64,000 nt of DNA from positions 62,001 through 126,000 of the forward strand of contig NZ_RBZV01000006.1 in the NCBI RefSeq assembly GCF_003628145.1, written 5' to 3'. Both the position numbers and the translations under genes were made by a program. The notes below the pieces were generated by a model. It did not search any database and had not been told where the DNA came from. It saw only the letters and a list, made by a program, of their open reading frames with translations. The DNA comes from Trinickia fusca (lineage in GTDB: Bacteria; Pseudomonadota; Gammaproteobacteria; Burkholderiales; Burkholderiaceae). Shown here one piece after another: positions 38,341 to 64,000 of the stretch. Each line of letters begins with the position of its first letter. Position 1 is the stretch's first letter.

Positions 38341-38361
38341 GATTGGTTTCCCGGCTCGGAC

Positions 38362-40155: not shown

Positions 40156-40592
40156 CACCAACTCGTTTGTAGTGGAATTTGTTCGGAGATGCGGCTTCCC
40201 CATCCCTTGGGCGCATGTGTCGCGCGAGCGGGTTGGGTGTGCGGAGGGTCGACGCGTAAGTCTCACGTTCACACCGCGCATATTTCTCGTTCGAGGTATT
40301 TCTATAATCGCGTCGCCGCCTGGCAACAATGCGAAGAATTGTCAATTGACCGCCACCACCACAAGCAGTGCTAATTGATGGGACCGGTACCTTTTTCATC
40401 ACCGAGCGCGGAAACCTCTCGATTACCCGGAGAATCGCGTCACACGCATCGTCAATTTCCATTTATCGTGCGATGATTTCACTGCGCCTCACTAGATCCG
40501 CGCGCAGCGTAAATTCTCTCAGTACTCCTGTAAAACATTGCTCAACGCATGCGCAAACCGACGAGACGTATTGGTCCGTGTTGCCCTCGAGA
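40156..40592. promoter_or_regulatory. Divergent promoter region, tpsBA versus response regulator
   Basis: This is the 437-base space between tpsB (minus) and the OmpR-type regulator (plus). Its middle part is AT-richer than the genes. No credible gene is seen, although the regulator frame stays open back to 40368. Both promoters must lie here, so the regulator may bind it. Confidence 0.5.
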
Positions 40593-42663: not shown

Positions 42664-44346
42664 CTAGCTCGCTATTGGCCGAGTAACAATGTGAGTCAAT
42701 TCCCGTGCAATGCGCTCGATGGGGTCCCGCCAGTCATCGGCGACAGATTGGTGAAAGACGCGAACCAAGCCGTACCAGCGGCTCCCCGATTGGCGGGCTG
42801 GCCAGCGCCAATCGCCGAATCGCCGATTGAGAAGCCAGACTGGGAGTCCCATCGCGCCTGCAACATGGACGGGTGCGGAATCGATTGTGATCAGCAAGTC
42901 GAGGCCGGCAAGCAAGCCGGCCAAATCCAGAAAATCTCTCACGCCACGATCCGCGCAACAGATGCCTTGCGTGTCCTCCGACAGACCCGGTTGGACACGA
43001 ACCCAGTCGATGGTCCCCGCGAATCGGTCGATGAGCGGCCTGAGCGAATCGAACGACAGCGAGCGCCGCGCATCCTCGACGTGCGTGTGCTTGCCGGCCC
43101 AGCATAGGCCGACACGCAGCCGTCGCGCACCGGAAGGCCGATGTGGAACGAGCTGTGAGGACACCCGATCGCACCATGCGCGGCAAAGCGCATCAGGCAC
43201 TCGAATATAGGGCTCGGCAGCGAAGTCGAAGTCGGCCGAACCGGCAACGCCGAGACGGTGCGGCAAGCTGCACAACGGCACATGCCAGTCGAACGCCGGG
43301 ATCGAATCGCCGAACGCGATGACGTCGTCCACGCCCGCGACCGTGGCCGCCAGGCGCGCCAAAGGCCTGTTAGTCCCGAACACGACCTTCGCGGCGCCAA
43401 GCGCCTTGAGCCGTGGCGCGAAACGCAAGAACTGCATCTGGTCGCCATAGCCCTGCTCGCCCATCACGAGCACCGTTTTTCCGGAGAGATTTTCCCCACG
43501 CCACACCCGATCGACCTGCTCGTCCGTCCACCCCGCATCATGGCCCCACCAGAGCAGGCGGCTTTCATATGTCGCGAAACCGTCCTGCCAGCGCTCATCG
43601 GACAGCAAGGCCAGCGCCAGCTCCCAAGGAACCCAGTTCGGCACCTGCGGCAACTCCCGCAGCGTCGGATAGTGTCCCGCAACGGCGTGACATGCCGCAC
43701 GCTTGCGCGCCTCCCACTCGTACAGCCTGTGCGAGAAGGCGCCGCGCGCCGCGGCTTCGCTCAAGACGTCGATACGTTCATGATCCAGACCGAGACGCCA
43801 GGCTGCCCGGGCAAGCGCCACAGCAACCGTATCGGCTTCCTCCGGCGTATGCCGTCCATTCTTCGCGCTGCGCCACCCTTCGCGCAGCAGCGGTATTCCC
43901 GAGCCGGGACAGTCGTCCTCGCCCAGTTGCGCATAGGCGACAAGGAACTCGATCCGTCCTGGATGGCGCCGAAACGCCTCCAAGACCGTTGCGCGATATT
44001 CATCGTCGTGGTCAAGTTGCCTGAGCATGGCGAGGAGATTGCGCCAGCCCGATCCATAGCCGGGCTCGGCGGCCGTGAGCAAACGCAGATGATGCAGCGC
44101 CTCTTCGTGCCGTTGCTGCTGAAACAGGATCGCGGCCAGATTGTTGCGCCAGCGATGACCGTCGACGGGTTGCGAGGCAAGCCGCTCGAGCCAGTCCACG
44201 ATGCTGCCTCCCTGCCCCGCCTGCAGGCAAAGATCCGCGTAGCGCGCGAGGACGGCCATATCGTCCGGATGACGCGCCATGCGTTCTCTGGCTGCCTCAA
44301 CGAGCGCGCCGGGCGGGACGGCCGCCAGATCCGGGAGGTTGCTCAT
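42664..44346 (-). CDS. TPR protein with glycosyltransferase-like C-terminus (560 aa)
   Basis: I set the start at MSNLPDLAAVPPG (44346), which overlaps the stop of the upstream gene (ATGA). TPR-type helical repeats span residues 20-220. The C-terminal half holds ENLSGKTVLVMGEQGYGDQMQFLRF, WDWHVPL-type core, RLRVGLCWAGKHTH and DLLITIDSAPVHVAGAMGLP. This is the GT-B-type domain (GT9/GT41-like) of TPR-linked glycosyltransferases that often modify adhesins or flagellins. It is the last gene of the adhesin operon and closely resembles the two GT halves of the fusion protein before it. Confidence 0.8.
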   Translation of the reverse strand: MSNLPDLAAVPPGALVEAARERMARHPDDMAVLARYADLCLQAGQGGSIVDWLERLASQPVDGHRWRNNLAAILFQQQRHEEALHHLRLLTAAEPGYGSGWRNLLAMLRQLDHDDEYRATVLEAFRRHPGRIEFLVAYAQLGEDDCPGSGIPLLREGWRSAKNGRHTPEEADTVAVALARAAWRLGLDHERIDVLSEAAARGAFSHRLYEWEARKRAACHAVAGHYPTLRELPQVPNWVPWELALALLSDERWQDGFATYESRLLWWGHDAGWTDEQVDRVWRGENLSGKTVLVMGEQGYGDQMQFLRFAPRLKALGAAKVVFGTNRPLARLAATVAGVDDVIAFGDSIPAFDWHVPLCSLPHRLGVAGSADFDFAAEPYIRVPDALCRAWCDRVSSQLVPHRPSGARRLRVGLCWAGKHTHVEDARRSLSFDSLRPLIDRFAGTIDWVRVQPGLSEDTQGICCADRGVRDFLDLAGLLAGLDLLITIDSAPVHVAGAMGLPVWLLNRRFGDWRWPARQSGSRWYGLVRVFHQSVADDWRDPIERIARELTHIVTRPIAS

Positions 44347-47300
44347 CTCACATCGGTCGACACGTCGGCCGGTATGGCGACATGCTCGTCCCGCCTCCAG
44401 CTCGTCAATGCTTGCGCCAGCTCTTCGAGCGGTTCCACCCAGCTCAGATGCAGCTTCTGCCGAAAGATGCGCATGCTCGGATACCAGCCGGTCGTCGCGG
44501 CCCGAGCTCCCCAGCGCCAATCCGTCGAAATCCGATTCAGCATCCAGACGGGTTTGCCCAGCGCGGCAGCCAGATGAGCCACGGCCGTATCCACGGTGAT
44601 GACGAGATCCAGTTGCTCGACGAGCGCCGCCGTTTCCGCGAAATCGACGAGTTCGTCACTCACGTCGACCATCCCGGGCCAGTCCTCCGCCTCCGGTGCA
44701 CAATCGCCGACCTGAAGGCTGACCCACAAAATGCCCGGCACCTGTGCCAACGCCCCGCGCATTTCAGCGAGCGGAATCGAACGAAGCCGGTCGGCCGGGT
44801 AGATCTTGCGTCCCGCCCAGACGACGCCGATCCTTCGCAGTCCTGTCATCGCCGGGAAGCGCTCGCGCCATGCCGCTCGCGCGCCCTCTGGCGCACGCAG
44901 GTACGGAAACGCCGGGCGCAGATCAGCCGTCGTCGACACGCCAAGCCGGTGTGCGAGACTCATGAGCGGGCACAGATAGTCGAACGGCGGGCGGCGCGAA
45001 TCATCGAGCGGCACGGTCTGATCGACGCCAGGCGTAATCTCGAGCAGCCGCGCGAGCGGAGCCGACGCGCCGACGAGCACCGTCGCCCCGCGCCGCTTGA
45101 GCTCGGGCAGATAGCGCAGGAACTGGATCACGTCGCCATACCCTTGTTCGGGGAGCAACAGGATGCGTTTGCCGTCGAGCGGCTCGCCGCGCCAGAGCAA
45201 CGTTCGATATTCGTCGCCCGTCATGCCGCTGACGGTCTGGTGCTCCTGACGGACTTCGTAACCGGCGAACCCGCTCGCGTAATCGCCCTCGGCGAGCGAG
45301 ATCAACGCGTTGTTCCAATCCGGGCCGAAGCCCAGATCGATCGTTTGCAGTTCGGCGCGGAAGGGTTGCGTCGCCATCGTTTGCCGCACCGTGGCCATGC
45401 GCGGCTGCAACTCCTTCTTCATCTTCTCGCCCGACGCGGCCAGTGCCTCGCTGTTCAAGCGCCGCGCCTCATCGTAGCGTTGCTGCCGGTTCATCGTCAC
45501 CGCCAGATTGACTAGCACGCGGTAGTCGCGACGAATCGTCAGCGCGCGCCGCAGCGCCTCTTCCGATTCGCCCAGGCGATCGACGCGCTCGAGAACGGTG
45601 CCGAGCGCGAACAGCGCCTCCATGTGCTCAGGCTCGATGTCGAGCGCACGCTTGAGCGCCGCTTCGGCCGGCTCGTACGATTTGAGGTGGTGATAGACGA
45701 GCCCGAGCATCACGTGCGAGCCCGCCAGCTCGGAATGTGCCTCCACATAGCGGCGCGCGAGCGCGAGCGCCTTGTCGTACTGCTGCGTGCGCAGATAAAA
45801 CTGGATGCCGTTGTTCAGCGCCCCGGCATGTGTCGGGTCGAGCTCGAGCGCTTTGTCGAGGTCCGCCTGGGCATCGTCGCGCCGCTCCAGCGCGGCATGG
45901 GCCGGGATCAGATTGGCATGGCTTTCGGGAAGCTCCGGGTGTTGATCGCGCAACCATTCGAACCGGCGAAGGGACGCTTCGAACTCGCCGGCGTCCAACG
46001 CGATTTCGGCGCTCAACAGCACGATGTCCGGCTGCGTCGGCGCGAGTTGTGCAGCGCGGCACGCATGTTCGAACGCCTGTGCCGTATTGCCCTTCTGCCG
46101 GCGCAGCCGTGCCAGATTGGCCCAGCCCGTATGGAACGCCGGGTCGCACGCCACCGCTCGCACCATGTCGTCTTCCCGCGCCGGGTCGTCTTCGGCGCGC
46201 GCGGCCGCGCGGTTGCTGTACGCCACCGCATAGTCCGGGCGCAGCTCGATCGCGCGATCCAGGTAGCCGCGAGCCGCAGCAGCGTTTGCCGACAACAGCT
46301 CGAGCGCGCCAGCATGGCAAAGCGCCTTCGTCGAGTCAGGATGGTCCAGGAGGTACGCGTCGATCAACGGGCGTGCCTCGTCGAGTTTCGAGGCGCCCAA
46401 GGCCAACTCGATCGCCTTCAGCCGTTCAAGCGCGTCAGCGCGCCCGCGCTCGGTCGGGGCCAGCGTTTCGCCCGGCACGCGCGCATCACACCCGCGTGAT
46501 ACCGAATGTTGTGCCAGACGCTCGCGCGCCTCAGCGACCGCCCCGCTCCAATCGTTCAGCGTCTTCTGCCGAACCTGCTCGACAGACGCGTACCAAACGC
46601 CGTCATCGCGCAACAGCTGCCAGCGATATTCGCTGCCGAAGCGATTGAGCAGGATCGCCGGCATGCCGAGCGCGCCCGCCAGATGCACGGAGGCGGTATC
46701 GACGCAGATCACGACGTCGAGCGCTTTCATCGCCGCAGCGGTGGCGGCGAAGCTGTCGAGCATCACCGACCAGTCGACCACGCCGTTCGCCACCGCCAGC
46801 GCCGCGCAGTCGTTCGCACGCGGCCCCACCTGCAAGCTGTAGAAGCGCACGCCCGGAAGCGGCGCCGTCAACGTTCTGACGATGGGCTCAGCGAGCGAGC
46901 GCTGACCATCGAGCAGCATCTCGGGCTTGCCCGCGTAGACGATCCCCACGGCCAGGGCGTTCTCCGCAAGGCGATGCGACCGGAAACGCGCGACGGTGTC
47001 GGCGTCGCACGACAGATACGCGCCCACGGCCTCCGGTTGCGCCACGCCGAGTTCGTTCACGCGATGGTGCAGACTCAGAATCGAGACGTAGTAGTCGAAC
47101 GCAGCGGGCTCCTCCCGCCAATCGCAAATGACGATCTTCTCGCCCAAGTCGGCGAAGCTCGTTTCGAACAATGCGCGCACCGATGCATCGGCAGGCAGCA
47201 GGACGCAATCGGCCATCGCCGCCAGACGACGAACATGCCGCAGCCCTTGGAAGACATCGCCATAGCCCTGTTCCCACAACAGCAGCAAGCGCTTCCCGCG

Positions 47301-48758: not shown

Positions 48759-48777
48759 GATTGCGCCTCGCCGTCCT

Positions 48778-50190
48778 TTAGCGTTCCGTCATGGCCTTCG
48801 TCATGCCACGAACGATGGGTCGCAAGATGTAGGACATGATCGTTCGATGCCCCGTGATCACGTCGACCTCGGCGACCATCCCCGGCAGGATGTTCAGGTT
48901 GCCGACCTGCGTGCTGACGATGTTCCTGCGCGTGCGCACTTCGATCTTGTAGTAGAGATTCCCGGTACGCTCATCGGCCTGACTGTCGGGGCTGATCAGC
49001 TCGACCTTCGCGTCGATCGTGCCAAGCGCGCCCGAGTCGAAGGCCGTGATCTTCACCTTCGCCTCGTCGCCGAGCTTGATATAGGCGATGTCCTGCGGCT
49101 GAACGCGCGCTTCGATGAGCAGCGTGTCGTTGATCGGCACGATGTCGACGAGGCTCTTGCCGGGCGAGGCCACGCCGCCGATCGTCGTGATGTGCAACGT
49201 CTTGACGATGCCTGCCACGGGCGAGCGGATCAGCGTCCGTTGAAGAATGTCCTGCTTGCCCGACAGCGTGCCCTCGAGCGCGTTGAGCTGGATTTGCTTC
49301 TTCGCCAGATCCTCGCGCGCCTCGCTGCGGAACGTCGACGTCCTTTCGTCGATGCGGCGGCTCATCTCGGCAATCTGGGCACCGGCTTGCGCGGCGCCTT
49401 CCCGGGTCTGGATGACCTGCGCGCTCAGATTTCCTCGCTCGCGCTGCAGATTGATGATTTCGACGGGCGCCACGGAACCGACGGAGACCAGCGGCTGCAT
49501 GCGCTGAATCTGCTCGTCGAGCAAGCGCAAGTTGTTCTCGTACTGCGGGATGCGCCCGCGGTAGTCGGCGGCCTCCGCCTGTTTGGCCGCGCGCTGCTCC
49601 TGCAAGACCTCGATCGACGACGCAAGCGCCGACGCGCGTTGCGCGCGCACGCGCTCCTCCTCGGCGATCACGTCGGGCTTCAAACCGGCCGGGTAGGACG
49701 GGTCCTTGCCATCGGCCTCCGCCGAAAGCCGTGCAATCGCAGCCATCAGGCCGTCGCGCGTCGCGGCTTGCTCGGTCACGGCTCCTTGTGCGACCACCGG
49801 GTCGAGCCGTACCAGCGGCTGATCCTTGGCGACCAGTTGCCCTTCCTTGACGAGCAGTTCCCGCACGACGCCGCCTTCGAGCGTCGAGAGCTGCTGCACG
49901 GTCGTCGAAGGAATAACGTGCCCCTGCCCTGAAGCGATGATGTCGATCTTGAAGATCGTCGCCCAAAGGATCAGTGCCAGGATCAACGCGAGCATCACGC
50001 ACGGAATCAGGGCTGCGGCGCGACGTGCCGGCGCGATCGAGGCCTCCTCGAGACCGATGGCGCTCAGGCTGGAAAGACGCCGACGCCCGTCGGGCTCCGC
50101 TTCGAACGCGTGCTGCTCGAAAAACGAGAAGATGGCATCGGCGATGCGCAGAAATGGCGAGAAAACGCGCTTGGCAACGGTCGAGATCAT
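48778..50190 (-). CDS. HlyD-family type I secretion adaptor (470 aa)
   Basis: A cytoplasmic N-terminus is followed by one membrane segment at about 62-82 (PCVMLALILALILWATIF) and the HlyD signature region (GHVIPSTTVQQLSTLEGGVV). A long coiled-coil hairpin spans about 150-300, then the beta-barrel part (GKSLVDIVPINDTLLIEARV) and a C-terminal GMVAEVDVITG. It spans the periplasm between the ABC exporter and the TolC-type porin. Its start overlaps the ABC stop (ATGA). Confidence 0.9.
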   Translation of the reverse strand: MISTVAKRVFSPFLRIADAIFSFFEQHAFEAEPDGRRRLSSLSAIGLEEASIAPARRAAALIPCVMLALILALILWATIFKIDIIASGQGHVIPSTTVQQLSTLEGGVVRELLVKEGQLVAKDQPLVRLDPVVAQGAVTEQAATRDGLMAAIARLSAEADGKDPSYPAGLKPDVIAEEERVRAQRASALASSIEVLQEQRAAKQAEAADYRGRIPQYENNLRLLDEQIQRMQPLVSVGSVAPVEIINLQRERGNLSAQVIQTREGAAQAGAQIAEMSRRIDERTSTFRSEAREDLAKKQIQLNALEGTLSGKQDILQRTLIRSPVAGIVKTLHITTIGGVASPGKSLVDIVPINDTLLIEARVQPQDIAYIKLGDEAKVKITAFDSGALGTIDAKVELISPDSQADERTGNLYYKIEVRTRRNIVSTQVGNLNILPGMVAEVDVITGHRTIMSYILRPIVRGMTKAMTER

Positions 50191-52478
50191 TTCGCCCCCT
50201 TTGCATTCGCTTCGTCGGCCGCACTGGCTTTTCCACCCGAGAGCTTCGCCAGCACCTCGTCGCGCGGACCGTCGAGCACGACGCGTCCCGAGTCGATCAC
50301 CACGATGCGCGACACCAGTTGTAGAAATGCGGGCCGATGCGTGACGACCACGAGTGTCTGATCGACGAGCGATGTCTTCAACGCGTGCACGAGACGATTC
50401 TCCGCATCGATATCGAGCGAGCTCGACGGTTCGTCGAGGAGGATCGCGTGCGGGTCGTTCAACAACAGCTGCGCGAGCCCGACCACCTGCTTCTGCCCTT
50501 CCGACAATCCCCGCCCGCGTTCGCCGAGGCGCATCGAATAGCCGTCCGGATGCGTTCTCGCGAAATCGTCGACGCCCGAGATGCGCGCGGCTTGCAGCAC
50601 TTTGTGGTCGGATGCATCGGGGTGGCCGAGCGTGATGTTTTCCTTCAACGAGCCCGATACCAGAAGCGGGTTTTGCTGCAGATAGCCGACGACTTTGCGT
50701 CGCGTGACGACATCGAGTTGTCCGAGATCGACGTCGTCGTAGAGGATGCTGCCGCGCATCGGCACGAGCACACCCGCGATCAGCTTCAAAAGCGTGCTCT
50801 TGCCGGAGCCCATGCGCCCGAGAATCGCGACACGCTCGCCCGCGGCGATATGCAGCGACACGTTGGCGAGCGTCGCGCGTCCGCTCCGGTGCGCGGGATA
50901 GGCAAAGCTGACGTCATTGAGCGTAACGGCGCCGCTGAAATCATCGCGTGCGACGAACTCACGCTCCTCCTGCGTGACGCGCGGTATCTGAAAGAAGCGC
51001 GAAATGAATCCCGCCGCGATGCGTGCGTTTTCGAGCCGCATGCCGAGCGAGACGATCGAGAGAAACGGCGCGAGCGCGCGCCCGGCCAGCATGTTCGCGG
51101 CGATGAGCCCGCCCAGCGTGATCATCTTCTCGCCGACCATCCATGCGCCGACGCCGAGCAGCATCAGGCTCTCCAACTGCATGCAGGATGCCGTCACGCC
51201 CGAGACGAACTGCGTGAGCAGGCGGCTCGTCCCCGACGCGATGGCGGCCATCGCACTCTGATCGCGCCAGCGCCGCCGCAGCACGCGCTCGCCGCCGACC
51301 GCGCGAACCGTTTCGAGCGCGTTGATCGTTTCGACGAGCGTACCGTGGCGCTCCTGGCCGAGCTGCATCGACTGCTGGCTCGAACGCTGCACCGAACCCT
51401 GCAAGCGCCACAGCAACGCCAGGAGCAGCAATACCCAGAACACGGGCACCCATCCCAGATGCCCTGCCACGACGAACACCATCGCGAGTGCGATCAGGCC
51501 GAACGGCAAGTCGATGAGCAACAGGAGGATGCCCGACGTAAAGACTTCCTGGACCGTCCCGAAGCCTCTGAGCATGTCCGCCTGCGTGCCCGCCGCACCG
51601 GACCACGCCTCGAGCTTGATGTCGAGCAGATGTTCGAAGATGCGGCGCGACAGGACGATGTCGATCCGGCGAGCCGTTACGTCGATAATGTAGGCCCGCA
51701 CCTCTCGCAGCACGAAGTCCGCTGCAATGGCGATCAGCATGCCGATCATCAAGGTAACGAGCGTGGCCGTCGCCCCGTTGGGTGCCACGGTGTTGAAGAT
51801 CACCATGGAAAAGAACGGCATCGCAAGGCCCAGCAGCGTCGAGCCGAGTGACGCGATGAGCGCGTAGCGGAACGCCGACTTTTCGGCCAGCAAGACATCC
51901 CAGAGCCAAGCCATCTGCTCCTTGCCCGGCAGGCGCCAAGCGCTCTGCGCGCCGCTCGTCGCCGAATACGGCACGCGGTCTACTCTGAGCCACAGCACAC
52001 CGTCGCCTTGCGGCACCTGATCGGCCTGGTACTCGAAGAATTGGCATCGCCCCGTCGCATCGAAGCGAAACGCCCGCCGCTCATGGCTCATCTCGACGCG
52101 CGGGAAGAACAGCACCTGATCCTGCGCAGCGTCGGTGTCGACGGCAATCCATTGCGCCGATCCGAGTTCCGGCCGTTGTCCGGCCTTCACGGTTTCCACC
52201 ACGAGCCCAAAGGCCTTGGCCGCCTCGATCAAGCCGATCACGTCGACTTGCCCCAGCGCATCGCGGCCGTCCGTCAGCCCGGCCAGCATCGCGTCGAGCG
52301 AGACACCGCGCCCCAACGCCCGGCCAGCCTCCGTCACCGCGGCGGCCAGCATCCGATGGACGCGGGCGAGCGGAGGCAGCGCCTCACTGTCGCCGTCGAG
52401 CATTCCCCCGATACGTTCCACGGCCACCGTGCCGTCTTTCTGCGTCGAATCCTCGATCGCCGGAATTGCGTCGCTCAT
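50187..52478 (-). CDS. Type I secretion ABC exporter, LapB-like (763 aa)
   Basis: I set the start at MSDAIPAIEDSTQ (52478). The N-terminal C39-like domain (about 40-170) lacks the catalytic Cys, as in exporters of RTX-type adhesins. Six membrane helices lie at about 200-460. The nucleotide-binding domain has Walker A GRMGSGKST (about residue 555), signature LSEGQKQ and Walker B AILLDEPSSS. It would energise export of the giant adhesin of the same operon. Confidence 0.9.
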   Translation of the reverse strand: MSDAIPAIEDSTQKDGTVAVERIGGMLDGDSEALPPLARVHRMLAAAVTEAGRALGRGVSLDAMLAGLTDGRDALGQVDVIGLIEAAKAFGLVVETVKAGQRPELGSAQWIAVDTDAAQDQVLFFPRVEMSHERRAFRFDATGRCQFFEYQADQVPQGDGVLWLRVDRVPYSATSGAQSAWRLPGKEQMAWLWDVLLAEKSAFRYALIASLGSTLLGLAMPFFSMVIFNTVAPNGATATLVTLMIGMLIAIAADFVLREVRAYIIDVTARRIDIVLSRRIFEHLLDIKLEAWSGAAGTQADMLRGFGTVQEVFTSGILLLLIDLPFGLIALAMVFVVAGHLGWVPVFWVLLLLALLWRLQGSVQRSSQQSMQLGQERHGTLVETINALETVRAVGGERVLRRRWRDQSAMAAIASGTSRLLTQFVSGVTASCMQLESLMLLGVGAWMVGEKMITLGGLIAANMLAGRALAPFLSIVSLGMRLENARIAAGFISRFFQIPRVTQEEREFVARDDFSGAVTLNDVSFAYPAHRSGRATLANVSLHIAAGERVAILGRMGSGKSTLLKLIAGVLVPMRGSILYDDVDLGQLDVVTRRKVVGYLQQNPLLVSGSLKENITLGHPDASDHKVLQAARISGVDDFARTHPDGYSMRLGERGRGLSEGQKQVVGLAQLLLNDPHAILLDEPSSSLDIDAENRLVHALKTSLVDQTLVVVTHRPAFLQLVSRIVVIDSGRVVLDGPRDEVLAKLSGGKASAADEANAKGAK

Positions 52479-52512
52479 GTTTGCTTGTCCTGTTGTGTCA
52501 TCGCTGCTGCGC

Positions 52513-53394
52513 TTATCGGGTCCGACCGGCATCCAACGATCGTCGGTCCTGAGAGACTTCCGGCGGCCCGGCCAGGACGGTGCTGTTCGACCCCGTGGTG
52601 TCACGCCAGAACGACATCTTGTCGAGACGTTGGAACAGATCGGGCGGAAGCAAGGTCGGGCGTGAAACAGTCCGAACCTCGGAACTCACGCTATGCAGCC
52701 CAGGCACGCCCAGGGCGTGATCGAATTTGTCGATGCTTTCTTGATCCGCCATCTCCAAGCCGGTAAACCGATGTTCGAACATGGGTTCGCCGATGAAGTC
52801 GTAGACGGCTCGTAACGCGCGCTGCGGATCGGTTGCCAAGTACGTGTATTCGAGCAGGAGCAAACGGTCCGACTGTTCGCCGTAGAAGCCCTCTCGCGTA
52901 ACGTTCCATGACGCCCCTACAATGCGATCGGCACGCATCAGCGTATCGGTACGGCTGTAGACACTGCGTGCCTCCGTCCCGTCGTTGAAGAATGACGGAA
53001 TGGCTGTCTGATTCTTGCGGAACAGCCGCTCGAGACTATCGACGACCCAAGCGAGGCTGCGCACGCAGACGATCATCTTCGATTCCGGGAAAATCGTGCT
53101 GACGAGCGGCAGCAAAACAGGCCAGCTTCGATTCGAATCGAAGATCATCGTCTTGCCCGACTGCACAGCCTGCTCGTAGTAGCTCTTGAACACCCCCTCG
53201 TAGAGACGGCTTCTCAGGTCGTCGCTCATGATCGGATAGTGTTCATTCGGAATGCTGATTGATTGCCGAATGGCTGAAACGATGCCGAAAATAGGGCTCG
53301 TGATCGTGGCGTGGAAGCGCGGGTTCTGCGCCAGCAGTGTCGACAGCAAGGTCGAGCCTGCGCGGGGCAGGCCGCATATGAAGTGAGCTTTCAT
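52513..53394 (-). CDS. Sulfotransferase-family protein (293 aa)
   Basis: The N-terminus FICGLPRAGSTLLSTLL is the PAPS 5'-phosphosulfate-binding loop. A second PAPS-binding segment is near KMIVCVRSLAWVVDSLERLF, and FDSNRSW lies in the core. It is cytoplasmic, with no signal peptide. It lies between the ABC exporter and the oxygenase gene, 34 bases before the exporter, so it belongs to the adhesin operon. The likely substrate is the adhesin or its glycan, but a small molecule cannot be excluded. Confidence 0.82.
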   Translation of the reverse strand: MKAHFICGLPRAGSTLLSTLLAQNPRFHATITSPIFGIVSAIRQSISIPNEHYPIMSDDLRSRLYEGVFKSYYEQAVQSGKTMIFDSNRSWPVLLPLVSTIFPESKMIVCVRSLAWVVDSLERLFRKNQTAIPSFFNDGTEARSVYSRTDTLMRADRIVGASWNVTREGFYGEQSDRLLLLEYTYLATDPQRALRAVYDFIGEPMFEHRFTGLEMADQESIDKFDHALGVPGLHSVSSEVRTVSRPTLLPPDLFQRLDKMSFWRDTTGSNSTVLAGPPEVSQDRRSLDAGRTR

Positions 53395-53446
53395 CGTGTT
53401 GTGTAATGTTTTGTTATTCGGCGTGACGGCATTCCTTCAAATGCCG

Positions 53447-53917
53447 TCACGCCGAACAAAGAAAGCCGAAAGACAGAATGATTCGCGGCCGGTCGCCCAA
53501 CACAGCTGTCGTACCGTGCAACTTCAAGCCGGCATCCACGCGATAGATTCCGCCCTCGGGAACGTCCAGAATTTCGTTGTCGATAATCGGCTGCCCCCCC
53601 GCCTGCGGCTTGGAGATCATCACGTTGAAGCGCGTGTGGATCAGCCCGCCCTGATTCGGGTCCCGATGCATGTGCACCGCTCCCCCCCTGGTAATCAAGC
53701 TGCACAAGTCGCGGTAGAGTGGCTCCGGCGGCGTATTCCGCAAACCGAATCGCTCGATGATCGATAGCTTGATTTTCCAGACCTCAGCCGGAACGTTCGT
53801 GAATAAATGCAAACTCGCGAACTGACGCCCGAACCCGTTCGGCTGGAAACGTCGTACGTTTGCCAGTGCCCACGCACGTATCGGTTCCAGCTTGGTCTCA
53901 TCGAATAACGGTTCCAT
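53447..53917 (-). CDS. Small Fe(II)/2-oxoglutarate hydroxylase (156 aa)
   Basis: I set the start at MEPLFDETKLEPIR (53917), with GGGGGCGAG upstream. The metal-binding HxD-type motif is HMHRDPN, with the distal His in KLHGTTAV and the cosubstrate Arg in RPRIILSFGF. A GGIYRVDAG segment is typical of double-stranded beta-helix oxygenases that hydroxylate amino-acid side chains. It lies 84 bases downstream of the adhesin stop and before the sulfotransferase. Hydroxylation of the adhesin is an attractive inference. Confidence 0.7.
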   Translation of the reverse strand: MEPLFDETKLEPIRAWALANVRRFQPNGFGRQFASLHLFTNVPAEVWKIKLSIIERFGLRNTPPEPLYRDLCSLITRGGAVHMHRDPNQGGLIHTRFNVMISKPQAGGQPIIDNEILDVPEGGIYRVDAGLKLHGTTAVLGDRPRIILSFGFLCSA

Positions 53918-54001
53918 CTCGCCCCCGCATCGCAACAACCGCCGCCAGCCGACCGAGCGCCGCGAAAGTGCGGCGCAAGGCGCGGCAAGCGGCAGCGCGG
54001 A

Positions 54002-57000: not shown

Positions 57001-60000
57001 GCACAAAGCGTGCGTTCGCGACTTGTGTTTCGATCGTGACGGCGAGATTGGACGACATCGCCGATGTATTGCCGGCGAGATCGACTTGGTAGGCCGAATA
57101 GGAATACGTCCCATCGGCCTGAGATGCCGGATCGGTGAATTGCCAAGCCCCCGAACCATTCGACGTCGCCTGGCCGATGGACGCGCCATTGCGATAGACG
57201 ACGATCAGCGACCCCGGCTCCTCGACGGTGCCGGCGAGAATGGGCTGCGTCGCCATCGTCAAGTCGTCGGTCGTGTTGCCGAAATTGGCGCTGCCTCCTC
57301 CGCCGGAATTCGTGCCTGTGCTCCAGTTGGGACTGCCCGTGTACATCGTGTCGTTCTGCAACGTGAACGTCGGTGCCACCGTGGTGCGGTCGATGACGAC
57401 CTGGAACACCGGCGAGATCGCCGACGTGTTGCCCGCCGGGTCGATCTCGCGCGTGACATACGAGTAGGTGCCGTCCGATGCCGGCGCGGCGAAGGTCGAG
57501 AACGTGAATGACCCGCCCGCGCCTGCCTGGGTGTGCGCCACCGAGGTCGAGGTCGTGATGCTGCCCGACACGGTGAGCTGGTAGAGATCGACCGCTGAGC
57601 CAGGATCCTCGCCTGTGCCCTCCATCGCGAGGGTGTGCGAGTTAGTGCGGGCGTCCGAATTGGTGCCGGAGGTCCCGACGCCGAACGAATCGGTGGCTGG
57701 CGTCAACGAGGTGATCGTCGGCGTCGGGCAATCGGTGTCGATCGTCACGAGCACCGGCGCATCGAAGGTCGACGTATTGCCCGCCACGTCCACCTGCTGC
57801 GCCTGGAACGTGTGGACCCCATCGAGCATCGGCGAGGCTTGAATCGTGTACGAGCCGGTCGACGAATCGGCCACGACCGTGCCGATCGTGGCGCCGTCCT
57901 GCACGACGGTCACGTGCGCACCGGGCGTCGCGACGCCGACCATGAGCGGCGCGGTGACTCTCGTCAAGCTGTCACTGTTGGTCCCGGTCGTGCCGGCGCC
58001 GAACGTATCGTTGGTCGACAAGAGCGTCAGCGAAGGCGGCGCGACATGGGTGTCGACGACCACCTGAATCGGCACGGCAGGCGCACTGGTGTTGCCGGCC
58101 ACGTCGACCGCCACGGCCGAAACCGTGTACGTTGCGTCGGGCATGGAGGTCGGTGTGAGCGACCAGCTACCCGAGGCGCCGACAGTGACGACGCCGAGCG
58201 TCGCGACTGTCGTACCGTTGTTGGCCGTGAGGATGACGGCGTCCTGATAGGCGGCCTGCCCCGTGAAGATCGGCGTCGTGTCGTTCGTGATCCGGTCGGT
58301 GTTGCTGAAGCCCGAGTCCGAGCCCGGCGTGATCTGCAAGTTGGTCGGCGCCGGATCGTTGGTGTCGATCTGCACCGTGAGGCCCGCCGATAGCGAGCCG
58401 GTGTTGCCGGCCGGATCGACATAGCGCGACTGGATGAAGTGCGTGCCCGGGAACAGGTTGCCCGACGACACCGTCCAGGTCGAGCCGACCGCGCCGAGCG
58501 AGGTGGCAGAGCCGATCAGCGCGCCGTTGTCGTAGAGCAGCACCTCGCCGCCCGCCACTTGGTTGACACCCGTGAAGCGGGGGCCCAGGACGTTGGTGAT
58601 GTCGTCATGGTTGGTCCCGTTCGCGTTTAGCGGCGAGAAGCTGTCGTCGACCTGGAGCAAGGCCGGTGTCGTGCCCGCCGTGGCGACCGTATCGACCGTG
58701 ACGACGACATTGGCCGGCGCCGATTTGTTGTTCGCAATGTCGTACGAGGTCACGCTGAACGTGTGCGCACCGTCCGCGAGCGAGCCGAGCACTTGCAAGC
58801 TCCAGGCGCCGCTCGAGTTGGTGGTTGCCACGCCGATCGTCGTCGTGCCCTCCTTCACCAGCTCTTCCGTGCCGGCGACGGCCGTCCCCGTGAGCCAGGG
58901 GTTGGTGATGTTCGTGAGACCGTCCGAGTTGGTCCCCGTGGTGCCGCCGCCGAGGCTGTCAGAGTACGAGGCAAGCTGGGCAACCGGTGTCGGAGGTGTG
59001 GCGGTATCGATCGTCACCGCGAGCGCCGGACCCATCGCACTCGTCAAGCCGGTCATCGGATCCGAGACTTTGACCGTCACTTGATGAACACCATCGGCCA
59101 GCGACGTCGCGTCCTGAATCGTCCAGTTGCCGTTGCCGCCCGCGACGCCATGGCCCACGGACACACCATCCACGAACAGCGTGACGTTGAACCCGGCACC
59201 CGTCGTGCCGGTGAAATGTGGCGTCGTCACACGCGTGATGTCGTCGTTGTTCGTCGAGTCGATCGGCGCGGTATCGTCTGCGGTGAGCAACACCGGCGCG
59301 GGTGGCGTCGTGACTTGTTGGGCAATGGAGATCGGCGCAGCGGCCGACGTGTTCGTATTGCCCGCGATATCGACCGCTACGGCCGTGATCGTGTGCCCGC
59401 CCGGGCTCAGCGTATTGGTCTGGATCGTCCAGTGGCCCGTGCTGTCGGCATTGCCGACGCCGACGACCACGCCGTTGTCGAGCAGGCTGATCGCGGCACC
59501 GGCTTCGGCCGTGCCCGTGAAATCAGGCCGGGTGTGCGTCGTCGTCGTCGCATTGACGTCGGCGTCTGCCGGTATCAGCACCGGGGTGCTCGGCGGCGGC
59601 GTCGAGTTGTCGATGACCACCACGTCGGCGGCCGACGTGCTCGACGTATTGCCGGCCGGATCGATCGCCACCGCCACGAGGCTGTGCGAGGTACCCGCAG
59701 CCGAACCCGACAGCGGGCTCGACAGCGCGGTCGACCAGGTGCCGTTGTTGCCTGCCACGGCCTCGCCGACCGAGAGCGTCGTGCCGCCCGTCACGTCGTA
59801 GAGCTGCACGTAGGCGCCGGCCTCGGCCGTGCCGTTGAACGTCGGCTGCGTCACCGATGTGATGTTGTCGTGGTTCGTGCCCGTGGTGCCCGTGCCGAAC
59901 GTGTCCGACGAGGGAGACAGCGTGAGCGTCGGCGTCGATGTCGTAGTGTCGATCGTCACCGGCAACGGCGCCGAGGCCGCGCTCGTGTTGCCTGCGGGAT

Positions 60001-62791
60001 CGACCGACGTCGCGGTCAGGCTATGTACGCCATCGGCGAGCGAGGCCGTGTGGATCGTCCAGCCGCCGTTCGCATCGGCCGTCGCTTGACCCACCGAGAC
60101 GGTGCCGTCCATCAACGTCACCACGTCGCCAGACTCGGCCGTGCCCGTGATCGTGACCTGGCTGTCCTTCGTCAGACCGTCACTCGCGGTGCCCGCCGTG
60201 CCGACGCCGAACGTGTCGTCCACGAGATGCAGGTTCGCCGGCTTCGGATCGAGCGTGTCGAGCGTCACCGTCGTCGCCGCGCTCAGCGTCGAGGTGTTGC
60301 CGGCGATGTCGACTTGCTGCGCCGTGACTTGATATTGCCCATCCGCGCCGAGCGCGTTGCTCTGAATCGTGTAGTGGCCGCCCGCATCGGCGTTGCCATG
60401 ACCGATCGACAAGCCGTTCGCATACAGCGTGACGAGCGAACCCGCTTCCGCGCCGCTGCCCGTGAAGACCGGTGTCGTGACGTTCGTGATGCCGTCCGTG
60501 TGCGAGACGCCCGAATCCGAACCCGGATCGAGCGTAGGCGCCGCTAGCGGCGCTGCGGCGTTGTCGATGACGACGACGTCGGCCGCCGACGCGCTCGACG
60601 TGTTACCGGCCGGGTCGATCGCCACGGCCACGAGGCTGTGCGAGGTACCCGCATCCGAACCCGAGAGCGGGCTCGCAAGGGTTGTCGTCCAGGATCCGGT
60701 CGCATCGGCTGTCGCTTGTCCCACGGAAACCGTCGTACCGCCCGTCACGTCATAGAGCTGCACATAGGCGCCCGGATCGGCCGTGCCATTGAACGTCGGT
60801 TGCGTCGCCGACGTGATGTTGTCGTGGTTCGTGCCTGTCGTGCCCGCGCCGAACGTATCCGACGATGACGAGAGGGCGAGCGTAGGCTTCGGCGCGTCCG
60901 TATCGATCGTCACCGGCAGCACCGCCGACGCTGCACTCGTGTTGCCTGCCGCATCGGTCGAGGTTGCCGTCAGGCTATGCACGCCGTCCGCGAGCGAGGC
61001 CGTGTTGATCGTCCAGCCGCCGTTCGCATTGGCCGTCGCCTGCCCCACCGAGACCGTGCCGTCCATCAGCGTCACCACGTCGCCGGCTTCAGCAGTCCCA
61101 GTGATCGTGATCTGACTGTCCTTCGTCAGGCCGTCACTCGCGGTGCCCGCCGTGCCAACGCCGAAGGTATCGTCTACGAGGTGCAGGTTGGCCGGCTTGG
61201 CATCGAGCGTGTCGAGCGTCACCGTCGTCGCCGTGCTCAGCGTCGACGTGTTGCCGGCGATGTCCACTTGTTGCGCCGTGACTTGATACTGCCCATCGGC
61301 GCCCAGTGCGGTGCTCTGAATCGTGTAGTGGCCGGTCGCGTCGGCATTCGCCTGCCCGATCGACATCCCGTTCGCGTACAGCGTGACGAGCGAGCCGGCT
61401 TCCGCGCCACTGCCCGTGAAGACCGGCGCGGTGACATTCGTGATGCCGTCCGTATGCGAGACGCCCGAATCCGAGCCCGGATCGAGCGTGGGCGCCGCCA
61501 ACGGCGCGATGACGGTATCGAGCGTGACGCCCAACGAGACCGACGTACTCGTATTGCCGGCCCGGTCGACCGCATAGCTCGTGAAGGTATTGCTGCCCTC
61601 CGTCATCGCCTGCGACACCTGTACCGTGTACTGGCCGTTGACGTCGGCAATCGCCGATACGGTATGCCCCTGAGCATCGGACACATAGACGGTATCGCCG
61701 GGATGGGCGGTCCCGATCAGAGACGGCAGCTTGACGTTGGTAATGTCGTCGCTATTCGTGCCGCTCGTGCCGACGCCGAAGGAATCCGAGCTCGGGGCCA
61801 GCTGCAGCGTAGGCGTCGTGGCGTGGGTGTCGATCACCACGCTCGTCGGCGCCGACAGCGAACTCGCCAAAGGGCCTTGCTGGGCCTGGAACACGACGTT
61901 GTAGGTACCGTCGGCCATCGGAGCGCTGGGCGTGATCGTGAATTGCCCGTTGCTGTCGGTTGGCGCCGTGCCGAGCGACACCAGGTTCCCGTGCCCGTCG
62001 ACGGCATAGGCCGTGATGAGCGCACCGGCTGGTCCGCTGCCGACCAGTTGGGGCTGCGTGACGTTCTGGATGACGGGTGCGCCCGGCGTGGGATCCTTGT
62101 CGCCGGGGGAAAGCAGGAAGTTCGGTGTAGCCGGCACACTAGGCGCCTGCGCGGCCGATGCAGGCCCATTCAGGCCCGACGGCCCAAACCCGCCGCCGTG
62201 AACATCCCCAATCCCGAATTCGTCGTTGGACGGCACATCGATGTACGGGTCAATCGGCTTCTCGCTAAGACGTGCCAGATATTCGGGGGTCTCGTCGGTC
62301 GTGCGCACGTCCGTGCGCAAGTCGCCCATCAGCCCGGAGTCGCCGAGGCCCGCGTTCTTGATGCCGGAGGTGGTGACGTCACCCATGACCTGCCCCGTCA
62401 CCGTGTCGCTCTGAAGTGACTCGTCACCGGCCGCGTTCATGAACGGTCGCAATCCAAACGCGCCGCCCTGGCCTGGCGCAGCAACGCCTTGAAGTTGCAC
62501 CCCTGCCGGCAGCTCGAACTTTTCATTGCCTTGTTCGGTGGCAACGAGCGGTTGAGCGCCGAGCCGAATGACGACACTCTCATCGGCAAGCTGCGCGCCG
62601 ACGTTGGGCAGGACAGCCGATTCGTCCGGCGTGTGCACGACCAGGTCGCCACCATCGCGCGCAATCGTCGAATTGGCGGGCAGGCTCGAAATGATGAGCT
62701 CGTCGCCCTTTTCCAGGCCGGCTTCTTTCAGTTGCTCCAACGTCGTCGGTGCAACCTTGCCCCCACGCATTAACATCACTTTCGTCGTCAT
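54002..62791 (-). CDS. Giant type I-secreted adhesin with Ig-like and FG-GAP-like repeats (2929 aa)
   Basis: I set the start at MTTKVMLMRGGKVAP (62791), with GGAG upstream. The N-terminal 230 residues have a small conserved head (TLEQLKEAGLEKGDELIIS). About 16 bacterial Ig-like repeats follow (each ending VTIDT-like and carrying AGNTS), to about residue 1900. The C-terminal part holds about seven FG-GAP/dockerin-like calcium motifs (DDLNGDGTRDLF, DINGDGLWDVV), suggesting a beta-propeller. A short RTX-like stretch (SGSDQLVGGPGNATLVGNGG) and a C-terminal type I signal region complete it. No signal peptide is present, as expected for this route. Likely a biofilm or cell-cell adhesin. Confidence 0.88.
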   Translation of the reverse strand: MTTKVMLMRGGKVAPTTLEQLKEAGLEKGDELIISSLPANSTIARDGGDLVVHTPDESAVLPNVGAQLADESVVIRLGAQPLVATEQGNEKFELPAGVQLQGVAAPGQGGAFGLRPFMNAAGDESLQSDTVTGQVMGDVTTSGIKNAGLGDSGLMGDLRTDVRTTDETPEYLARLSEKPIDPYIDVPSNDEFGIGDVHGGGFGPSGLNGPASAAQAPSVPATPNFLLSPGDKDPTPGAPVIQNVTQPQLVGSGPAGALITAYAVDGHGNLVSLGTAPTDSNGQFTITPSAPMADGTYNVVFQAQQGPLASSLSAPTSVVIDTHATTPTLQLAPSSDSFGVGTSGTNSDDITNVKLPSLIGTAHPGDTVYVSDAQGHTVSAIADVNGQYTVQVSQAMTEGSNTFTSYAVDRAGNTSTSVSLGVTLDTVIAPLAAPTLDPGSDSGVSHTDGITNVTAPVFTGSGAEAGSLVTLYANGMSIGQANADATGHYTIQSTALGADGQYQVTAQQVDIAGNTSTLSTATTVTLDTLDAKPANLHLVDDTFGVGTAGTASDGLTKDSQITITGTAEAGDVVTLMDGTVSVGQATANANGGWTINTASLADGVHSLTATSTDAAGNTSAASAVLPVTIDTDAPKPTLALSSSSDTFGAGTTGTNHDNITSATQPTFNGTADPGAYVQLYDVTGGTTVSVGQATADATGSWTTTLASPLSGSDAGTSHSLVAVAIDPAGNTSSASAADVVVIDNAAAPLAAPTLDPGSDSGVSHTDGITNVTTPVFTGSGAEAGSLVTLYANGLSIGHGNADAGGHYTIQSNALGADGQYQVTAQQVDIAGNTSTLSAATTVTLDTLDPKPANLHLVDDTFGVGTAGTASDGLTKDSQVTITGTAESGDVVTLMDGTVSVGQATADANGGWTIHTASLADGVHSLTATSVDPAGNTSAASAPLPVTIDTTTSTPTLTLSPSSDTFGTGTTGTNHDNITSVTQPTFNGTAEAGAYVQLYDVTGGTTLSVGEAVAGNNGTWSTALSSPLSGSAAGTSHSLVAVAIDPAGNTSSTSAADVVVIDNSTPPPSTPVLIPADADVNATTTTHTRPDFTGTAEAGAAISLLDNGVVVGVGNADSTGHWTIQTNTLSPGGHTITAVAVDIAGNTNTSAAAPISIAQQVTTPPAPVLLTADDTAPIDSTNNDDITRVTTPHFTGTTGAGFNVTLFVDGVSVGHGVAGGNGNWTIQDATSLADGVHQVTVKVSDPMTGLTSAMGPALAVTIDTATPPTPVAQLASYSDSLGGGTTGTNSDGLTNITNPWLTGTAVAGTEELVKEGTTTIGVATTNSSGAWSLQVLGSLADGAHTFSVTSYDIANNKSAPANVVVTVDTVATAGTTPALLQVDDSFSPLNANGTNHDDITNVLGPRFTGVNQVAGGEVLLYDNGALIGSATSLGAVGSTWTVSSGNLFPGTHFIQSRYVDPAGNTGSLSAGLTVQIDTNDPAPTNLQITPGSDSGFSNTDRITNDTTPIFTGQAAYQDAVILTANNGTTVATLGVVTVGASGSWSLTPTSMPDATYTVSAVAVDVAGNTSAPAVPIQVVVDTHVAPPSLTLLSTNDTFGAGTTGTNSDSLTRVTAPLMVGVATPGAHVTVVQDGATIGTVVADSSTGSYTIQASPMLDGVHTFQAQQVDVAGNTSTFDAPVLVTIDTDCPTPTITSLTPATDSFGVGTSGTNSDARTNSHTLAMEGTGEDPGSAVDLYQLTVSGSITTSTSVAHTQAGAGGSFTFSTFAAPASDGTYSYVTREIDPAGNTSAISPVFQVVIDRTTVAPTFTLQNDTMYTGSPNWSTGTNSGGGGSANFGNTTDDLTMATQPILAGTVEEPGSLIVVYRNGASIGQATSNGSGAWQFTDPASQADGTYSYSAYQVDLAGNTSAMSSNLAVTIETQVANARFVQVQTPAGASSNYYAQPVGIPALANGLSAAEIYNVSGGHTGVPVYFQIDPTTASKSKPGDIVVVDFTFTYASGTGLTTATSETTYTLQAADLTVTAGNTPTLTTWVAPATFYANNNWQNTYLPINQMTVELQVRNPAGDVGFTNTPNVDVLTGTENAAHVNQDLWTEANNTSTNTWLGNGVQVYRQLGRPNAQLGSTVLVGDDLNGDGTRDLFLWAPGSGAANNNGMVYVVDGQENTAANGTGFVDLQNVGTAPGWGEAHGAGAATGGYAWTGMALALANYTFTSNMGGDGHSELVAANRIGGYSQGSPQIVAEVIYNEALGSGGWAQSLTGSTLTSGTTTQFYVPLHTDTAYHGGGAPTNTAVFGQLAPYYDINGAGRPDLFWTDGGTGSSGGGSPTTYGDLIVGYTPSSPVGLDNLTLPGTSMNLAANKGFYVYSTDALHPLGEGDGYYTPQDLWAQPIGCLTGDGLTDIAVGQADGSFNTRANNGRVAIIFGRNDGTGVDVNNLQPGQGFYITWNSATNAGDQFGYQIKSMDLTGSGYDDLVISCRSSAGANSGNPNTFDFVIDGKWLANYVHTHLNDPGGIPTLSVDALYNAMASNTPNAMGFIIGDPTNTNFSGNTGYPMNLGVPILRADLNGDGYQDTVYQSGSQYYVLWGSPDYQPGKYANYGTSWFQQPNHLELLNNSSGGPVQFSDINGDGLWDVVLGNAGDTTDGSNAGKVEVVYGANSQTGGTAAPGSPMPFASSYTNSWSASNNTVTGTSGSDQLVGGPGNATLVGNGGVDVLQGGGGNNTLVVNGDNIANFDTPGSRWDGGIVQQGHINTLQFDTHNTVNATLDLTIATNGSDLNAHIHNIERFDLNGNGNTLKFDIRSVLDTSSMGVFLDGGGNGETWSGSTWDASYTGSHGGRTTPLGPNVPMKQWVIDGNATNTLDFEAFTPIAQAGASAGLTGNWSLVGHVNHNDVHGAMQTYDIYEFSGSNVQVIVNHNIHLTHGGVPGSGL
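59600..61515. repeat. Tandem 0.95-kb module duplication in the adhesin gene
   Basis: Two consecutive units of about 955 bp (about 60555-61515 and 59600-60555) each encode the same three Ig-like domains, starting APLAAPTLDPGSDSGVSHTD. The protein copies differ at only a few positions. This is a recent in-frame duplication that lengthened the stalk. Confidence 0.75.
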
Positions 62792-62928: not shown

Positions 62929-64000
62929 TCAGCTGGGAAGTCGACTGCCCGGGTTCGTCGGAGGTTGAACCGGATCGCTTGCCGGCTTCGCGTCGGCCGG
63001 CGCTTCCAACAGATTGGGCGGCGCCACGTCGACGGGTGCCGGCGTGGGTGCCGGCGGCACGATCAGAGGCTTCGCATCGACTGCGCCTGCCACCGAGCTC
63101 GACGACGACACAGGCGTATCGAATAGGACCTTACGTTTGGTGAGCTCGCCCACCACGTCGCCACGAGGCAGACCGTCAGGCGGATTCATCGATGCGATGC
63201 GGCCGGGGAAGAAATTGCGCACGGGAGCCGGCCCGATCGGACCGCGTTCCGACTCCGGCACCGGGAACACGTCCACCATCAGCCCCGAGCTCTCGAGCAG
63301 CGTGTAGCTCGCGACCACTTCGCGCATACGCAAGTTCAGCAAGGCGGTGGCCGCGCGGGCGCGCGAATAGTAGGCGTTCGACAGGCCGCTGACGGCCTCA
63401 TCGGACATCGACTGTGTCGCGAACGACTGCTGCCGTTGCTTCAGCACCTCATCGGACAGCCTCAGCGTTTCATTGAGGATCGCTTCGCGCCCCTTGGACG
63501 CGGCGAGCGCATCGCGGGAGATGCGGATGTTGCGCTCGACCTCGCGCATCGCGCGTTCGTTGTCGGCCTCGCTCTTCTCTTTCAGGAACATCTTTTCGGC
63601 GATCGAATTGCCGTAAGCCGAGCCCCACAGCGTCCAGGTCACGTTGATACCGACTTCGTAGCCGCGCCCGTTATAGGGCTGCGTCGTGCCCTGGGTCGAG
63701 AACAGCCGGTTGTCGTTGTAGCGGGCGTAAAAGTTGAGCTTCGGCAGACGATCGGCCTTCATGCTCTCGACCGCATAGGCGGCTGCCTGAATCGTCTTCA
63801 GGTTCGCCATGATTTGCGGATGGATCGAATAGGCGAGCCGAAGATTGTCGTCGAACGAAAGGCAGGCAAGATCACGCGTATAGATGCCGGATATTCCGGG
63901 TTCGACGAGATCCTCGGGCGGCTCCAATCCTGTCAGCGTTCTATAGGTCGTATTGACTTCGTTCAGCTGACTCAGAATGTCTTCGCGATCGGCCATGACT
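62929..64000 (-). CDS. TolC-family outer-membrane protein, 5' end outside window
   Basis: The frame is open to the window edge; the ATG at 63996 lies inside the coiled-coil part, so the true start is beyond 64000. Helical alternation (NLKTIQAAAYAVESMKADRLPKL, ERAMREVERNIRISRDALAA) and a WTLWGSAYGN turn match the second half of a TolC-type porin. The C-terminal about 70 residues are a long Pro/Ala/Val-rich tail (VPPAPTPAPVD). It would complete the exporter for the adhesin encoded 138 bases downstream. Confidence 0.8.
   Translation of the reverse strand, partial: VMADREDILSQLNEVNTTYRTLTGLEPPEDLVEPGISGIYTRDLACLSFDDNLRLAYSIHPQIMANLKTIQAAAYAVESMKADRLPKLNFYARYNDNRLFSTQGTTQPYNGRGYEVGINVTWTLWGSAYGNSIAEKMFLKEKSEADNERAMREVERNIRISRDALAASKGREAILNETLRLSDEVLKQRQQSFATQSMSDEAVSGLSNAYYSRARAATALLNLRMREVVASYTLLESSGLMVDVFPVPESERGPIGPAPVRNFFPGRIASMNPPDGLPRGDVVGELTKRKVLFDTPVSSSSSVAGAVDAKPLIVPPAPTPAPVDVAPPNLLEAPADAKPASDPVQPPTNPGSRLPS

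Follow-up and report, generated by a model that had tools for sequence, protein, structure and literature searches.

A giant adhesin operon of Trinickia fusca with type I secretion genes and candidate modifying enzymes, among them a RaxST-like sulfotransferase

We analysed a window of 64,000 nucleotides from the 6.1 Mb draft genome of Trinickia fusca (contig NZ_RBZV01000006.1, positions 62,001 to 126,000; genome G000, contig C38 in our numbering), in which a minus-strand operon joins a giant adhesin to parts of a type I secretion system (T1SS) and to candidate modifying enzymes. Read 5' to 3', the genes encode an OmpA/BamE-like protein, a TolC-like outer membrane channel (OEP), the adhesin, an oxygenase-like protein, a sulfotransferase, an ATP-binding cassette (ABC) exporter, a HlyD protein, a fusion of methyltransferase, tetratricopeptide repeat (TPR) and GT9-like glycosyltransferase (GT) parts, and a second TPR/GT9 protein (Table 1), with the first two genes starting beyond the window end. 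All of them are minus-strand open reading frames (ORFs) scored as coding by a codon-based caller, the oxygenase with a weak score, and with the families assigned by Pfam and NCBIfam they bear out an earlier note on this DNA, which had described a minus-strand cluster of adhesin, exporter parts and four candidate enzymes. The range given there, 44343..62791, takes in the core genes and omits the second TPR/GT gene (42664-44346), the OEP and OmpA/BamE-like genes and a divergent CysC gene. The ATGA overlaps reported at 50187 and 44343 follow from the ORF ends (ABC/HlyD, 50187/50190; fusion/second TPR/GT, 44343/44346) and agree with the tight coupling proposed from them, a description that does not extend to the oxygenase and sulfotransferase genes, which are separated by 52 bp containing most of a strong hairpin.

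Table 1. Features of the operon, 5' to 3' on the minus strand (window positions)
Feature	Position	Strand	Evidence
TolC-like outer membrane channel (OEP), C-terminal part	62929..63999	-	PF02321 1.4e-21; full frame 610 aa (L003)
Giant T1SS-type adhesin, 2929 aa	54002..62791	-	Pfam Big_13/Big_6 repeats, FG-GAP, RTX
Oxygenase-like protein, 156 aa, likely ATG start 53917	53447..53917	-	phrog_13746 1e-7; H84-x-D86, H134, R145 pattern
Intercistronic hairpin, 21-pair stem, over oxygenase stop codon	53414..53459	-	-38.2 kcal/mol, z -6.77
Sulfotransferase, 293 aa, RaxST/TPST-like	52513..53394	-	PF13469 1.4e-15, PF00685 5.7e-9; R11, S120 in two PAPS motifs
T1SS ABC exporter, likely ATG start 52478	50187..52604	-	ABC_membrane and ABC_tran (Pfam); TIGR03375 LssB 620.5 bits
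HlyD membrane fusion protein	48778..50190	-	TIGR01843 9e-106
1471-aa methyltransferase/TPR/GT9-like/TPR/GT9-like fusion	44343..48758	-	Pfam/NCBIfam: methyltransferase, TPR, two GT9 stretches
Second TPR/GT9-like protein	42664..44346	-	TPR match; GT9 match below cut-off

The adhesin contains 16 Big_13 stretches together with FG-GAP and RTX matches in Pfam, and hydroxyl residues other than Tyr are plentiful in it (Thr 13.6%, Ser 8.6%). Its immunoglobulin (Ig)-like repeats, its RTX part and the dedicated ABC, HlyD and OEP genes place it among the type I-secreted giant adhesins, although the best NCBIfam match of the ABC protein, TIGR03375 (LssB), lies below its cut-off of 693.1 bits. LapA/BapA-type adhesins share with the window the combination of Ig-like repeats, RTX, LssB-type ABC, HlyD and TolC-like OEP in one operon, whereas the window adds the sulfotransferase, the oxygenase, the methyltransferase/GT genes and CysC; we know of no LapA/BapA operon that carries any of these modifying enzymes.

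Upon examining the sulfotransferase, we find that the earlier description of it as an enzyme using 3'-phosphoadenosine 5'-phosphosulfate (PAPS) holds, through PF13469, the PAPS motifs and a tyrosylprotein sulfotransferase (TPST) fold. The PAPS motifs are kept in a 16-row alignment, and R11 and S120 are invariant in both alignments made. The top solved sequence for its profile is human TPST1 (6.5e-13), and a Foldseek search with the AlphaFold model (20-row alignment; predicted local distance difference test score, pLDDT, 89.3) places tyrosylprotein sulfotransferases at each of ranks 1-13 (best E 8.6e-9, TM ~0.6), human TPST1/TPST2 being the best fold and profile match at an identity of 16-20%. 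TPST1 and TPST2 are Golgi enzymes with acidic-Tyr targets. Additionally, phrog_27463 (function unknown) is matched at 1.5e-35, and related enzymes therefore exist in phages; no sulfotransferase relatives were found in viral contigs. Within the genus the sulfotransferase is matched at E <= 1e-5 in 2 of 11 genomes, and the genus mate holds two copies (42% and 37% identical) at other locations, one adjoining CysC and an AMP-binding/PP-binding gene and the other a C39-type ABC gene.

The closest precedent is the RaxX-RaxST-RaxA-RaxB system of Xanthomonas oryzae, in which, as in the window, a PAPS sulfotransferase and type I exporter parts share one operon. RaxST is described as a tyrosine sulfotransferase encoded in an operon with RaxA/RaxB, with PAPS supplied by raxP/raxQ (PMC4216712, PMC6637879), so that the coupling of a sulfotransferase to a type I exporter has been seen before. 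RaxST was modelled on TPST2, with Arg-11 and Ser-118 essential (PMC4216712, PMC6637879), and these residues correspond to R11 and S120 of the window enzyme when matched by place, without an alignment to RaxST (numbers from PMC6637879). Homologues of RaxST (~40% identity) are described in proteobacteria and cyanobacteria alike; most of them lack raxA or raxB and presumably have other substrates (PMC6637879). In both systems PAPS is made by separate enzymes. The two differ in that the double-glycine peptide RaxX has 60 residues and a C39 peptidase forms part of RaxB, whereas the window has a 2929-aa adhesin and an ABC protein in which Peptidase_C39 is unmatched at E <= 0.01. The oxygenase and GT genes are features of the window beyond the Rax system.

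We found that the sulfotransferase family recurs beside giant surface proteins. A scan over 84,980 species gave at least 593 matching stretches, of which 500 passed confirmation and the best 80 were retained (L033-L112), these being the closest relatives and not a random sample. The next same-strand gene after the sulfotransferase belongs to a giant-protein cluster in 77 of these best 80 loci, the loci without such a partner being L052, L062 and L084; 55 of the 77 partners reach 1500 aa, 17 are truncated below this size by the sequence end, and 5 are smaller. Outside Pseudomonas the giant partner is present in 18 of 21. When same-strand pairs with the sulfotransferase upstream are compared with the other same-strand pairs, 55/80 downstream genes reach at least 1500 aa versus 1/580. 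Furthermore, a hidden Markov model (HMM) of DUF4347, made from four Pfam-marked stretches, matches 76/80 downstream genes versus 2/856 other genes of the loci, and both of these others encode proteins adjoining a sulfotransferase gene; one of the four downstream genes without a match is cut to 120 aa. The co-occurrence of enzymes and adhesin that the earlier note had proposed to look for is borne out for the sulfotransferase and not for the window oxygenase, which is nearly unique. This near-constant pairing with DUF4347 giants gives RaxST-like enzymes a testable candidate substrate. A full-text search, in which subscription journals are poorly covered, returned no paper in which sulfotransferases are linked with giant adhesins or with DUF4347, and PMC12153261 describes another T1SS adhesin family with sulfotransferases unmentioned.

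The DUF4347 giants of Pseudomonas and other bacteria resemble the window in having the same sulfotransferase family beside a giant surface protein, with CysC and an oxygenase in some loci, and differ from it in their N-terminal domain and in an oxygenase without detectable close kinship to that of the window. Two giants of the 80 were tested for domains and contain Big_12 or Big_13; in survey relatives, DUF4347 is joined either by DUF4214 and ESPR or by fn3 plus an autotransporter barrel. Of the best 80 loci, 55 have a set of three HlyD-like proteins, the longest of which (one tested) matches M50, 44 have OEP and 53 have GNAT; at many giants the HlyD-like set comes together with OEP, and type V parts were present at two survey loci tested. 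Because domain and exporter makeup differ in this way among the giants, the exit route seems variable, with DUF4347 and the sulfotransferase as the constant elements. Neighbours not found may lie outside the fetched DNA, since stretches were limited in length and 17 giants are cut by the sequence end.

Two further features of these giants concern processing and export. The DUF4347 stretches of the 76 partner genes (e.g. L042:10759-17298) conserve a His-Gly (H 99%) and a Cys (100%), which to our eye resemble the dyad of caspase/CHAT-type (clan CD) peptidases; self-cutting or processing is a possible role of DUF4347. Additionally, an LEPR motif lies in the first 150 aa of 63/77 giants, near the three-HlyD set (L042:2263-6455), and the three HlyD-like proteins and M50 part near LEPR giants are perhaps an exporter of an undescribed kind.

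Other surveys extend the pairing and show additional contexts. In the order (349 genomes), the sulfotransferase family is matched at E <= 1e-25 in 9 genomes, the own genome included, and 5 of these adjoin a giant gene (own, G659, G600, G570 and G696), G570 and G600 being shared with the genome scan; G433 carries the family twice, with an M10 protein, ABC and HlyD alongside. In the class (369 genomes) the family occurs in 3, own included: in G823 it adjoins a 2195-aa DUF4347/autotransporter protein, and in G1309 a 566-aa gene resembling the Pseudomonas giant, with a second, distant copy (29%) adjoining a 1792-aa protein with a two-partner secretion (TPS) domain. Type I exporter parts lie near family members not only in G433 but also in Undibacterium L084, in the genus mate (C39-ABC-sulfotransferase) and on a Caballeronia plasmid with the order M10 protein-sulfotransferase-CysC-ABC-HlyD. 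A Nostoc plasmid carries a family member between a calcium-binding protein and CysC; neither of these adjoins the sulfotransferase on two plasmids of acetic acid bacteria. Overall, sulfotransferase relatives beside giant proteins in many bacteria hint at an overlooked sulfation of bacterial surfaces.

CysC is adenosine 5'-phosphosulfate (APS) kinase, which makes PAPS, and its gene lies 1.8 kb past the window, divergent from the operon (G000:C38:127843-128496; Pfam 4.5e-60). The own genome has four matches to this protein at E <= 1e-20, and in the 11 genus genomes no other copy exceeds 58% identity to it, so the copy looks local to the locus. CysC accompanies 28 of the best 80 sulfotransferase loci; this count, like those given below for PMT_2, the hydroxylase and a second sulfotransferase, refers to BLAST clusters with Pfam run on 1-4 representatives, and has no background rate.

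The small 2-oxoglutarate (2OG) oxygenase of the earlier note is upheld by its residue pattern and by an intermediate link, and not by any direct family assignment. The window oxygenase has no credible direct match in Pfam or NCBIfam, none above a curated cut-off, and is unmatched by the PF05118 (Asp/Asn beta-hydroxylase) profile; nothing credible was found among PDB sequences, and an AlphaFold model made without an alignment has a mean pLDDT of 35.5. It plausibly reaches the 2OG-Fe superfamily through phrog_13746 (function unknown) and a relative as intermediates: this relative, 32% identical (L015:8367-8765, genome G105), matches phrog_13746 at 2.3e-36 and PF13640 (2OG-FeII_Oxy_3) at 3.2e-4, with 22.0 bits against a cut-off of 27. 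The residues H84, D86, H134 and R145 are all kept in the relative and fit HxD...H...R, which we take to be the usual 2OG-Fe(II) oxygenase pattern. No adhesin lies beside the G105 relative in the 17 kb fetched, and a search of plasmids, phages and viral contigs gave no relative of the window oxygenase. The hairpin over the oxygenase stop codon has no T-run and was not picked out as a terminator-like site; by protecting or ending part of the message for adhesin and oxygenase, it may set enzyme levels below that of the adhesin. A repeat element was considered for it and rejected, with the exact 14-bp arms found at just one place in the genome.

We interpret the locus, with a probability of roughly 0.5, as a type I-secreted giant adhesin operon carrying its own modifying enzymes, in which the sulfotransferase sulfates the adhesin and the exporter then releases it. 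The RaxST-like enzyme would transfer sulfate from PAPS, supplied by the neighbouring CysC, to the adhesin, acting in the cytoplasm either ahead of export or during it, and the adhesin would leave the cell via ABC-HlyD-OEP. The 2OG-Fe-type oxygenase would probably hydroxylate the adhesin, giving a hydroxyl that may or may not accept sulfate or sugar, and the TPR/GT9 proteins would probably glycosylate the adhesin or a different surface protein. The adhesin as substrate, the compartment, the acceptor residue and the order of reactions are what we infer here from genes and families. Taken by its parts, the reading put forward in the earlier note is broadly correct for the sulfotransferase, plausible where the oxygenase is concerned and weak for the glycosyltransferases. 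Protein sulfation of biofilm or contact fibres, if true, would add a new layer to the surface chemistry of bacteria.

Several observations weigh against a sulfated adhesin or against other parts of the earlier note's model. DUF4347 is absent from the window adhesin by both Pfam and the HMM, and in a 42-row tree the window sulfotransferase forms a long branch (1.63) at an open fork, with unsure placement, next to but outside the main clade, which comprises 24 rows of named loci; because of both, its function is assigned through its family alone. The DUF4347-linked sulfotransferases L028, L094 and L129 also fall outside that clade. The TPST region after the 5'-phosphosulfate-binding (5'-PSB) motif, presumably the site of the catalytic Glu, is not conserved in the family, where the aligned stretch reads MTSP in most rows, in a part where the alignment is weak, and Tyr is therefore not secured as the sulfate acceptor. 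Tyr residues with at least 3 acidic neighbours are not enriched in the window adhesin (3 observed versus 3.4 expected from shuffles), nor in 40 of the 57 large giant-cluster proteins (17 observed versus 58.1 expected; the first 40 by name order, the window adhesin included), and targeting of acidic Tyr in the metazoan manner was rejected as unsupported. The sampling is narrow, with 59 of the 80 kept loci from Pseudomonas by record title. Furthermore, 3 of the 9 order positives, all of one genus, lack a giant gene within the 9.7-20 kb fetched, and the genus-mate copy next to CysC and an AMP-binding/PP-binding gene implies that the family serves other contexts too. For the oxygenase, the family survey (398 genomes) found the own genome and one weak match, the G105 relative, and the phylum survey (398 genomes) the own genome and one short weak match with an internal stop. 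Finally, relatives of the C-terminal TPR/GT part of the fusion occur in 11/11 genus genomes (3-9 matches each at E <= 1e-30), whereas the operon is not genus-wide, its ABC protein being matched at E <= 1e-100 in 1/11, the own genome; for the glycosyltransferases this is the outcome that the earlier note had named as refuting its model.

Among the alternatives, the one that survives best, though we regard it as rather unlikely, is that the sulfotransferase acts on a glycan in the manner of NodH-type or heparan 3-O-sulfotransferase (3-OST)-type enzymes, either a sugar built on the adhesin by the TPR/GT9 proteins or a surface carbohydrate made elsewhere. Two GT genes share the operon, and a gene of a PMT_2 glycosyltransferase cluster (one member Pfam-tested) lies upstream of the sulfotransferase in 32/80 best loci, all of them Pseudomonas. 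Ten of the listed genus TPR/GT places were viewed in context, and in three of these (L114, L117 and L118) a gene of at least 2457 aa directly follows three tandem TPR/GT genes, with L120 having such a large gene ~3 kb from a TPR/GT gene; the large genes at the three places match no window protein, and the one tested (L114) has no Pfam family. Being genus-wide and found in these other large-gene contexts, the TPR/GT9 enzymes may serve surface proteins, yet they are untied to the window adhesin. A glycan acceptor is disfavoured by the structure and profile searches, in which protein tyrosine sulfotransferases come first and heparan 3-O-sulfotransferases reach just E 2.4e-4, ranked under two polyketide-type enzyme sulfotransferase domains, and by the neighbourhoods, neither window GT gene being in the 30 largest neighbour clusters of sulfotransferase loci.

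A special case of the sulfated adhesin, and by itself improbable, is a two-step modification in which the oxygenase hydroxylates the adhesin and the sulfotransferase or a glycosyltransferase modifies that hydroxyl. In the window the oxygenase gene is directly upstream of the sulfotransferase gene, and the best 80 loci offer a parallel. An Asp_Arg_Hydrox (PF05118-type) hydroxylase with a Nif11 part is present in 31/80, 29 of these 31 from Pseudomonas, and a second sulfotransferase in 26/80, the tested one scoring 23.9 bits to PF13469, below the cut-off. The two adjoin in 23/80, with overlapping frames in 22, and this pairing is the main independent support for cooperation of oxygenase and sulfotransferase on giant surface proteins, as judged from gene order, with nearly all of the evidence from Pseudomonas. 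Pseudomonas thivervalensis DSM 13194 (L091), for example, has the sulfotransferase, the giant, the hydroxylase and the second sulfotransferase, and Pseudomonas sp. DTU12.3 (L042) adds CysC to these. With CysC in 28 of the 80, the hydroxylase in 31 and this adjacency in 23, the theme of oxygenase, sulfotransferase and giant protein recurs, and the combination put forward in the earlier note reappears in outline, with an oxygenase different from that of the window. For the Asp/Asn-hydroxylase profile, L-proline cis-4-hydroxylase is the best solved sequence (6.6e-17). Profile comparison (hhalign) of the window oxygenase with the Pseudomonas hydroxylase brings the HxD and H/R positions together (E 0.0086), at a probability of 4.7%, which together with the missing PF05118 match counts against the two-step reading; the single PF05118 match of the window organism lies ~73 kb off on the same contig, outside the operon. 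In addition, sulfotransferases of this fold can use Tyr directly. One protein of the Asp/Asn-hydroxylase type (L042:19427-20230) ends in a C-terminal Nif11 domain, a domain otherwise known as a peptide leader.

We consider it doubtful, at about the level of the two-step modification, that a widespread system hydroxylates and then sulfates giant surface proteins to give a densely anionic fibre, with RaxST as a specialised offshoot of an older adhesin-sulfating family; equally speculative are the Asp, Asn or Pro residues of Ca-binding Ig-like repeats as example hydroxylation sites.

A surface-gene hotspot, in which enzymes and adhesin are merely co-located and the sulfotransferase and oxygenase act on small-molecule or polysaccharide substrates, would suit the near-unique oxygenase, the lower G+C (0.58) around its gene, the family member adjoining CysC and an AMP-binding/PP-binding gene and the three copies from a single genus that have no giant nearby, and is made unlikely by the same-strand adjacency to one protein type in 76-77 of the best 80 loci and by the size contrast between sulfotransferase pairs and control pairs.

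Outside the operon and on the same strand, a two-partner secretion locus lies next door at 33514-40329, with a 1608-aa TPS/YDG/PATR protein bearing ESPR and a ShlB-type transporter.

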